Of a stretch of DNA of 64,000 bases, positions 16,347-18,611 are shown one piece after another (positions within the stretch are counted from its first letter, which is position 1; every line of letters begins with the position of its first letter). Location: the NCBI GenBank assembly GCA_013299045.1, contig JAAFJX010000018.1, forward strand, positions 1 to 64,000. The letters run 5' to 3'. The position numbers and the translations under genes were made by a program. The notes beneath the pieces are model-generated. The model did no database searches, had not been told where the DNA came from, and worked only from the letters and a program-made list of their open reading frames with translations. The stretch comes from Cytophagales bacterium (GTDB lineage: Bacteria > Bacteroidota > Bacteroidia > Cytophagales > Bernardetiaceae).

Positions 16347-18611
16347 TTGAATGCTATGCACACAAAACTAACTTACTTATATGCCAATGAAATTATATAT
16401 CAGATAGCAAGCAAATGGAGTTCTGGCCGCGAAGAAGCTATTTTTGAACTTAATTTGAATAATTTTGATACAGTTACAGTCAATGATTTTCAGGATTGGT
16501 ACACCTATTTGCAGGAACGCGCCGCCGATGTAAACATCTATTTTTTAGAAAAAGAATTTCAAGTAGAAGGGCTTTTAGATTTTCTGGTTTTTACGCCGCT
16601 GCCCGTTTTGCTTTTCAAAAAAACACCTACTGGCGCTATCCCTATTATGATTTGGCGCAACGTCAATGATAAAAAATTTTATAAAATTGAAAAAATACAG
16701 GAGCGTTGGCTCAGCCAAGAGATTGAAAGCATCGATGATTTTGCAGCCGACTGCATCAGTAAAATAGACCTTTATGAGCTTAGAACCAAAGAGAAAAGCA
16801 GCGCTCTCTATGTACTTGTGCCCATACGTGTAGAGCCTACTGTTTCGGATAAAAATATGTCAAAAGACAAATACTCAACGGTTCGTCGTTTGTGGTACTT
16901 GTTGCAAACAGAAAAGAAAGATATTGGCTATGTTTATATCTATGCCATAGTAGCGGGCTTGCTTTCTCTTACCTTACCGCTTGGTGTTCAATCCATTATC
17001 AACATGATTTCGGGTGGCCTTATACTCTCTTCAGTCATTGTGTTGATTACGGTAGTCATTGCCGGAACATCAATGAGCGGATTTTTACAAATTATGCAAA
17101 TGCGGATTGTGGAAACCATACAACAACGTATTTTTACCAGGGCTTCTTTTGAGTTTACATACCGAGTCCCCAAAATTAAGTTAGAGTCTATCGCCAAGTA
17201 CCATGCGCCCGAACTGATGAACCGCTTTTTTGATGTCCTAACACTACAAAAAGGCTTAGCAAAATTACTCACTGATTTGATTGCGGCAGCTCTGCAAGTT
17301 TTTTTTGGAGTCTTTTTATTAACATTTTATCACCCTTTTTTTGTGTTCTTTGGGGTTACTCTTTTAACAATCTTGGCGCTTATTTTTTGGATAACAGGCC
17401 CCAAAGGATTAAAAACAAGCATTGAAGAGTCTAATCATAAATTTGAAATTGCGCACTGGCTAGAAGAGCTCGCCCGAACCATGTCCACCTTCAAAATGTT
17501 GGGCAACACTTTTTATCCACTTAGCCGAACCAACCAATACGTAACCAAATATTTGCGTAAACGAAAACTTCACTTTGACGTTTTGGTTATGCAATACACC
17601 TCCGTAGTAGTTTTCAAGACCATCATAACGGGTGGTGTTTTGATATTGGGCAGTATTCTGGTCGTCAATAATGAAATTACGATAGGTCAGTTTGTGGCCT
17701 CCGAAATTGTCATTATCACTGTTGTTGCTGCCGTAGAAAAACTCATTCTGAGCATGGATAGCGTCTATGACCTACTTACTTCCACCGAAAAAATAGCCAA
17801 AGTAACTGACCTGCCTCTTGAAGAATATGAAAGTACCTTTCAGTTTGACAAGCAAGGCTTTTGGGTAAAAACACAGGATTTATCCTACACTTATCCTTAC
17901 ACCGAAAAAGAAATTCTTAAAAATATTACCGTAGAGGTATTACCCGGCCAGCACGTGGGCATTGTAGGCGCAGGCGGAGCAGGAAAAACTACACTGATGA
18001 ATGTTATCGTGGGGCTATATGGTGGTTACAAAGGTTTAATTTCATACAATGGGCTTTCTATCAAAGACTTAGATGTAAACAGTTTGCGCAACCACATTGG
18101 CGATAACCTCAACCCTTCAGAGGTTTTTGAAGGAAGTTTTATGGATAATATTACACTTGGCCGTAAAAACCAAACCCAGGAAGACCTTATCAAAGCCCTT
18201 GATATTGCGGAACTTACTGAATTTGTTTCCAATCTGCCAGACGGCATGAATACCAAAGTAATGGCGGGAGGCAAGAACTTGGCCTCACACATTATCAAAA
18301 AAATGATTCTAGCACGCAGTATGCTCGGCAAACCAAATCTTATGGTCTTTGATGCCTTTTTTTATAATCTTGACGGCGACTACAAACGCCGTATGCTAGA
18401 AAAACTTTTAGACAAATCCGTCTATAACTGGTCTGTTCTAGCAGTTTCACAAGACCCCATTTTTTTGAAACGTCTAGATAAAATTTATCTCATGAAAGAT
18501 GGCACAATCGTCAATAATGGCACTTATGACGAACTATTGAACGATGACTACTTCAAGAGTATTATTCCTAGCTTGTTTGAAGACCGCGACTCCAAGAGCA
18601 AACCAGCTTGA
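16347..18611 (+). CDS. Type I secretion-like ABC transporter with degenerate ATPase motifs
   Basis: 754 residues: a soluble N-terminal domain of about 175 residues that is not a recognisable C39 peptidase, five or six membrane helices (about 190-470) and a nucleotide-binding domain (about 510-745). The membrane part resembles HlyB/PrtD-type exporters. In the ATPase domain only the Walker A loop is intact (GAGGAGKTT from about residue 541). The Q-loop glutamine position is Asn589, the LSGGQ signature is replaced by LASHI (645-649), the glutamate after Walker B Asp669 is Ala670, and the H-loop histidine is Gln702 (VSQDP). It may bind but hardly hydrolyse ATP on its own. From memory, a Bacteroidota exporter subfamily shares this erosion and usually sits beside an HlyD-like gene; here no partner is adjacent. 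The start could also be the ATG at 16356. Confidence 0.85.
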   Translation: MNAMHTKLTYLYANEIIYQIASKWSSGREEAIFELNLNNFDTVTVNDFQDWYTYLQERAADVNIYFLEKEFQVEGLLDFLVFTPLPVLLFKKTPTGAIPIMIWRNVNDKKFYKIEKIQERWLSQEIESIDDFAADCISKIDLYELRTKEKSSALYVLVPIRVEPTVSDKNMSKDKYSTVRRLWYLLQTEKKDIGYVYIYAIVAGLLSLTLPLGVQSIINMISGGLILSSVIVLITVVIAGTSMSGFLQIMQMRIVETIQQRIFTRASFEFTYRVPKIKLESIAKYHAPELMNRFFDVLTLQKGLAKLLTDLIAAALQVFFGVFLLTFYHPFFVFFGVTLLTILALIFWITGPKGLKTSIEESNHKFEIAHWLEELARTMSTFKMLGNTFYPLSRTNQYVTKYLRKRKLHFDVLVMQYTSVVVFKTIITGGVLILGSILVVNNEITIGQFVASEIVIITVVAAVEKLILSMDSVYDLLTSTEKIAKVTDLPLEEYESTFQFDKQGFWVKTQDLSYTYPYTEKEILKNITVEVLPGQHVGIVGAGGAGKTTLMNVIVGLYGGYKGLISYNGLSIKDLDVNSLRNHIGDNLNPSEVFEGSFMDNITLGRKNQTQEDLIKALDIAELTEFVSNLPDGMNTKVMAGGKNLASHIIKKMILARSMLGKPNLMVFDAFFYNLDGDYKRRMLEKLLDKSVYNWSVLAVSQDPIFLKRLDKIYLMKDGTIVNNGTYDELLNDDYFKSIIPSLFEDRDSKSKPA

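Follow-up and report, generated by a model that had tools for sequence, protein, structure and literature searches.

The ATPase, which is normally the most conserved part of ABC transporters, is also their defining feature. Several described systems resemble the exporter family considered here, and each of them also differs from it. HlyB of type I secretion and the exporters PCAT1 and ComA share its domain order, its fold, and its HlyD–TolC operon; however, the family has lost the catalytic motifs of the nucleotide-binding domain (NBD), many of its members have also lost the C39-like domain, and one clade has lost the NBD itself; moreover, the family is linked to TetR-family genes, and a large secreted substrate was not noticed beside it. 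Heterodimeric exporters with one degenerate site, such as TM287/288, TmrAB, TAP, and BmrCD (reviewed in PMC7756269), have the type IV fold and the degenerate signature and catalytic residues in common with the family. Exporters of this type pair a degenerate site with a canonical one, whereas the family has one ABC gene per operon, so that a homodimer would carry two degenerate sites, and a partner subunit completing a consensus ATP site is absent from the operons. Transport by a bare transmembrane domain (TMD) has been described as well. NBD-deleted MsbA showed proton-coupled efflux in cells and in liposomes (PMC4979069), and LmrA-MD was reported to be a secondary-active translocator in which E314 of TM6 is important for proton and drug transport (PMC6155054). 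MsbA-MD and LmrA-MD are similar to the shortest proteins of the family, but they are artificial truncations, whereas those of the family are natural, occur in many species, and have dedicated HlyD and TolC partners. The MFS tripartite pumps of the EmrAB–TolC type (PMC8277102) also combine an ATPase-free inner-membrane exporter with an HlyD/EmrA-type adaptor and TolC; their inner-membrane part belongs to the MFS, whereas that of the family is an ABC-exporter TMD (PF00664), and the adaptor of the family matches the EmrA model TIGR00998 weakly (52.5 bits, cut-off 390.8). Searches of open-licence PMC papers turned up no description of a uniformly degenerate-NBD family, nor of tripartite operons whose exporter naturally lacks the NBD.

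The window, i.e., the whole stretch of 64,000 nucleotides that was analysed, carries the gene of such a pseudo-ABC exporter on its forward strand at 16,356–18,611; the parts of the gene given below lie on this strand. Inspection of the sequence found the frame open from 16,347 to 18,611, with no internal stops or frameshifts. The ATG at 16,356, which gives a protein of 751 aa, seems a likelier start than the TTG nine bases upstream at 16,347 (754 aa). The protein consists of a C39-like N-terminal domain (16,356–16,841), a TMD with six TM helices (16,869–17,816), and a degenerate NBD, or pseudo-NBD (17,832–18,581), which is the least conserved part of the core. In Pfam, both ABC_tran (PF00005, 56.9 bits) and ABC_membrane (PF00664, 43.1 bits) were over the cut-off. 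The Walker A motif GAGGAGKTT (residues 541–549 in P0001 numbering, as for all residues below; 17,967–17,993) is intact. The Q-loop Gln is replaced by Asn589 (18,111–18,113), the signature LSGGQ by LASHI (residues 645–649; 18,279–18,293), the catalytic Glu by Ala670 (18,354–18,356), and the H-loop His by Gln702 (18,450–18,452). These four changes had been reported by an earlier, sequence-only reading of this DNA, and their positions in an intact ABC exporter frame were confirmed. The same reading named Walker A as the exception to the loss of nearly all ATPase motifs; Walker A is indeed kept, but it is not the sole survivor, as the Tyr of the A-loop and the Asp of Walker B (D669) are retained too. 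Four other type IV exporters of the same genome keep the LSGGQ signature (LSVGQ in one), the Q-loop Gln, the H-loop His, and the catalytic Asp/Glu.

The AlphaFold2 model of the window protein (pLDDT 84.8) is that of a type IV exporter. Its closest Foldseek matches are PCAT1 and HlyB, and HlyB aligns with the whole model over residues 7–737. When folded by itself (pLDDT 80.9), the N-terminal domain matches the peptidase domains of PCAT1 and ComA with Z scores of 9.5–9.6 and HlyB with 8.9; with Foldseek alone, the matches of this domain are weak (best E 0.011). The window protein thus has the C39 or C39-like domain of HlyB/PCAT exporters, which is missing in the short family members. None of the curated NCBIfam models for type I secretion or PCAT exporters was passed, the best being TIGR03797 with 193.5 bits (cut-off 709.4), and LssB giving 182 (693.1). 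On the basis of the HlyB-length alignment and the C39-like fold matches, the ancestry of the family is HlyB/PCAT-like.

The loss of ATPase motifs extends across the family. With the window protein as the query (E ≤ 1e-60), matches were found in 181 of the 241 genomes sampled from the order. A family profile (E ≤ 1e-100) matched 97 of 395 genomes across the phylum, and the named relatives belong to the Cytophagales, Flavobacteriales, Saprospirales, and Chitinophagales. An intact ATPase motif set was found in none of the aligned family members, and neither the window protein nor the census of its family shows the competent set that an ATP-driven ABC exporter requires. The motif census covered 157 core members. 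The Walker A Lys is present in 150 and the A-loop aromatic residue in 154, and the Q-loop Gln is present in only 6. At the fourth signature position, there are 7 Gly and 103 Ser, at the catalytic position 7 Glu and 110 Asp, and at the H-loop position 10 His and 73 Asn. A homologue from a congener, 83% identical over its full length, shares the LASHI-type site, DA, and SQD with the window protein, and the combination of E→A with H→Q is confined to this protein and that of the window. Other members from the window's bacterial family have Asp at the catalytic position and the H-loop His, and most members beyond it have Asp and Asn. Of the Bacteroidota subfamily with the same changes named in the earlier reading, the shared motif loss is supported, and the substitutions prove not to be uniform. 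The further proposal of that reading, that the loss is selected and does not represent decay, is supported by the family-wide pattern in Bacteroidota and beyond. In deep members from other classes, the Walker B Asp and the catalytic Glu are still present, in some together with the H-loop His, but the Q-loops and signatures are already altered. ATP hydrolysis is conceivable in these deep-branching proteins. They (L206, L208–L211) lie on a long branch whose place in the TMD tree is unsure, so the order of the motif losses is only suggested. In three homologues from Sphingomonadales plasmids, which are encoded in exporter–HlyD–TolC operons, even the Walker A Lys is gone.

Conservation within these proteins is inverted in comparison with a canonical exporter. 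The comparison used 19 genomes (171 pairs) in which the pseudo family occurs together with an MsbA-like canonical exporter. The identity in the pseudo family was 58.9% for the TMD and 42.3% for the NBD, as against 61.2% and 71.8% for the canonical exporter. The NBD was more conserved than the TMD in 0 of 171 pairs in the former and in 166 of 171 in the latter. Nearly all of the family-invariant columns of the alignment are located in the TMD of the window protein. The window protein and its congener are 91% identical in the TMD and 79.6% in the NBD; their synonymous sites are saturated (pS 0.76–0.78), so this pair gives no dN/dS and the claim is limited to strong protein conservation. As judged from these alignments, the pseudo-NBD is constrained, yet not as an ATPase would be.

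Outside the window's bacterial family, the usual gene order is exporter (~550–780 aa)–HlyD–TolC, often with an adjacent TetR-family gene; in one operon set, Pfam confirmed HlyD, the outer membrane efflux protein, and TetR. No second ABC gene was found in the operon neighbourhoods of the family. The genome of the window encodes one HlyD and one TolC of the matching type, which are paired at C40:120028-122830 and unlinked to the exporter, and no other inner-membrane transporter was recognised next to this pair. A matching HlyD is present in 7 of the 8 genomes of the window's bacterial family, even if unlinked, and in 0 of 30 genomes without the exporter. The family has the dedicated adaptor and outer-membrane channel of HlyD–TolC tripartite systems. 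Within the bacterial family of the window (L045–L048, L348–L350), the operon is increasingly dispersed: in G080 and G052 the linkage of hlyD persists, and in G037 and G066 the exporter, hlyD, and tolC are separate from each other, with all three retained. The C-terminus of the partner HlyD (PIWYELWRQLNGFPPSL) is unusually conserved and rich in invariant W, P, and G residues (adaptor alignment A2, e.g., L195:7596-8951).

The short members of the family lack the C39-like domain, and a further group lacks both this domain and the NBD. The search of the phylum revealed homologues of ~335–360 aa that retain the TMD and stop where the NBD would start. This TMD-only form occurs in at least 67 species from three bacterial families (f12, 23 of 100 genomes; f10, 33 of 101; f23, 11 of 101). 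PF00664 was over the cut-off for three TMD-only proteins, and a PDB search by sequence with one of them gave no match. In all 51 TMD-only loci examined, the next gene downstream is hlyD, on the same strand and in most cases with an 8-bp overlap. The 26 longer loci all have the order TMD–HlyD–TolC, and none of them has an NBD gene within the operon. The single NBD near a TMD-only operon (L194:12019-12867) lies ~1.3 kb past tolC beside a 266-aa ORF; it was rejected, being missing from the other 25 loci. L266 was excluded as an NBD-less case, since its frame runs off the contig, and none of the five plasmid records examined contained a TMD-only case. In the TMD tree, the TMD-only proteins form one clade (bootstrap 100, SH-aLRT 99) nested in the pseudo-NBD family. 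The clade sits in f10, next to NBD-bearing f10 proteins, and the f12 and f23 copies fall inside it, apart from the NBD-bearing proteins of their own families, which implies transfer. The tree is best explained by a single loss of the NBD inside the pseudo-NBD family, followed by transfer into two more families. At the level of sequence, the operon of this derived clade demonstrably contains no recognisable ATPase, and its TMD, HlyD, and TolC are under strong constraint. The TMD-only form and the longer form can occur in the same cell, as genomes G073 and G139 each contain TMD-only frames alongside longer frames of NBD length.

In type IV exporters, the docking site of coupling helix 2 is in the opposite NBD. 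To follow the residues that are kept or released in the TMD, 165 NBD-bearing proteins were aligned with 51 TMD-only ones. In the TMD-only proteins, 5 of 6 ICL2/coupling-helix-2 residues (W371, E374, R377, F382, K383) are relaxed, and 10 of 11 coupling-helix-1 residues (E289, N292-RFFD, Q301, K302, K306) persist. The difference between the two helices (Fisher p = 0.002) is based on small numbers, and ICL2 also varies most in the control clade (3/7). Given the docking of coupling helix 2, the release of ICL2 fits a genuine loss of the NBD. The invariance of coupling helix 1 could reflect the docking of some cytosolic protein. A family-specific glutamate in TM6 (residue 453; 17,703–17,705), within the motif GQFVASE of the window protein, is kept regardless of the NBD: in the consensus GQ[FL]VA[SA]E, it is Glu in 164 of 165 NBD-bearing proteins (one D), in 51 of 51 TMD-only proteins, and in 6 of 6 deep members, and canonical exporters have I/I/I/L at this position. 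E453 and E314 of LmrA are both TM6 glutamates.

These observations slightly favour the view that the window protein is the inner-membrane part of an HlyD–TolC-type tripartite exporter of HlyB/PCAT-like descent in which ATP hydrolysis is no longer the motor. It is quite likely that the window protein does not require ATP hydrolysis. Ion coupling specifically is put forward as a tentative proposal. In the envisaged course of events, the motor would have lost its catalytic residues family-wide, its gene segment would then have been deleted once, and the stripped version would have spread between bacterial families. A TMD dimer would work with HlyD and TolC as an exporter, and its alternating access may be powered by an ion gradient, most likely of protons, by analogy with NBD-deleted MsbA and LmrA. 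The invariant E453 would be a candidate coupling residue; alternatively, it could have a structural role. Members that have the pseudo-NBD may use it as a clamp with a structural or regulatory role, possibly with nucleotide binding retained, and the conservation of Walker A and the A-loop aromatic residue in the NBD-bearing Bacteroidota suggests that nucleotide binding probably matters there. The TetR-family gene that is often found beside the operon points to a small, toxic, or signalling molecule as the probable cargo.

The same conservation (Walker A Lys in 150/157, A-loop aromatic in 154/157, with the hydrolysis residues lost) would also suit a nucleotide-gated conduit or regulator similar to CFTR or SUR, in which ATP binding without hydrolysis opens or holds the HlyD–TolC path and substrates move downhill. 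A precedent for this idea is the ion conduction that ATP binding elicits in LmrA (PMC6155054). However, the TMD-only members have no nucleotide site, and the three Sphingomonadales members have no Walker A Lys; the ATP-binding channel or regulator of the sequence-only reading is therefore possible for the NBD-bearing members and fails as a general mechanism, and on the whole this explanation is unlikely. A somewhat poorer chance is given to an ATPase in trans, i.e., a separate NBD or canonical exporter half that docks on the TMD and powers transport. Genomes of this kind, including that of the window, encode many other ABC ATPases, and the TMD-only proteins, too, have an invariant coupling helix 1. 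Against this stand the release of the ICL2 residues, the operons with no second ABC gene, and the apparent movement of the operon between families without a linked NBD. The pairing with an active exporter half that had been suggested earlier is likewise not supported, as the operons have no second ABC gene and the derived clade has dropped its NBD entirely.

It is improbable that the NBD-bearing members retain a slow ATPase of unusual chemistry. The Asp at the catalytic position (110/157) and the altered signatures might allow it, and close genera of the window's bacterial family keep the Walker B Asp and the H-loop His, but in a homodimer, both sites would be degenerate at the Q-loop, the signature, the catalytic Glu, and usually the H-loop. 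Moreover, the catalytic and H-loop positions of the window protein are occupied by Ala and Gln, and the TMD-only members persist without any of these residues. The absence of so many canonical ABC motifs could also be the mark of a decaying pseudogene or of a sequencing or frameshift artefact. This explanation retains hardly any likelihood and was ruled out by the intact ORF, the family distribution (181/241 genomes of the order), and the protein constraint, with 79.6% identity in the NBD of the congener at saturated synonymous sites; in addition, TMD-only genes are found in single-contig assemblies. The thought that this copy alone might be eroded or frameshifted does not survive either, as its homologues show the same type of loss and its frame is open.

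Together, the motif loss, the single deletion, and the spread may, with some reserve, be taken to define a naturally occurring class of export machines, built on an ABC TMD that was turned into an ATP-independent, ion-driven pump within an HlyD–TolC system. Whether the TMD of an ABC exporter can act as an ion-coupled transporter has long been debated; so far, this has been claimed only from laboratory truncations of LmrA and MsbA, and native proteins make it testable. Tripartite pumps may gain a type of inner-membrane component beside ABC, RND, and MFS. The family is large and widely annotated as “ABC transporter ATP-binding protein”, although its conservation is inverted and it has a natural NBD-free end point, and genome annotations that list its genes as ATP-driven are probably in error.

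Some minor observations concern the distribution of the family. Certain genomes (G019, G097, G130, G133, G171, G073, G139, G183) hold two or three paralogues. Relatives are carried by two MAG contigs labelled Gemmatimonadetes (L132 and L145); L132 groups with the window's bacterial family, and the Lys of its Walker A is replaced by Glu. Mis-binning or transfer would account for the two contigs. The Sphingomonadales homologues are annotated in their plasmid records as ordinary ABC transporter proteins. LysR-family genes lie near the operon in two of these plasmids, and TonB receptor/esterase genes in the third (L321, L322, L323); these neighbours are possible hints at the substrate.
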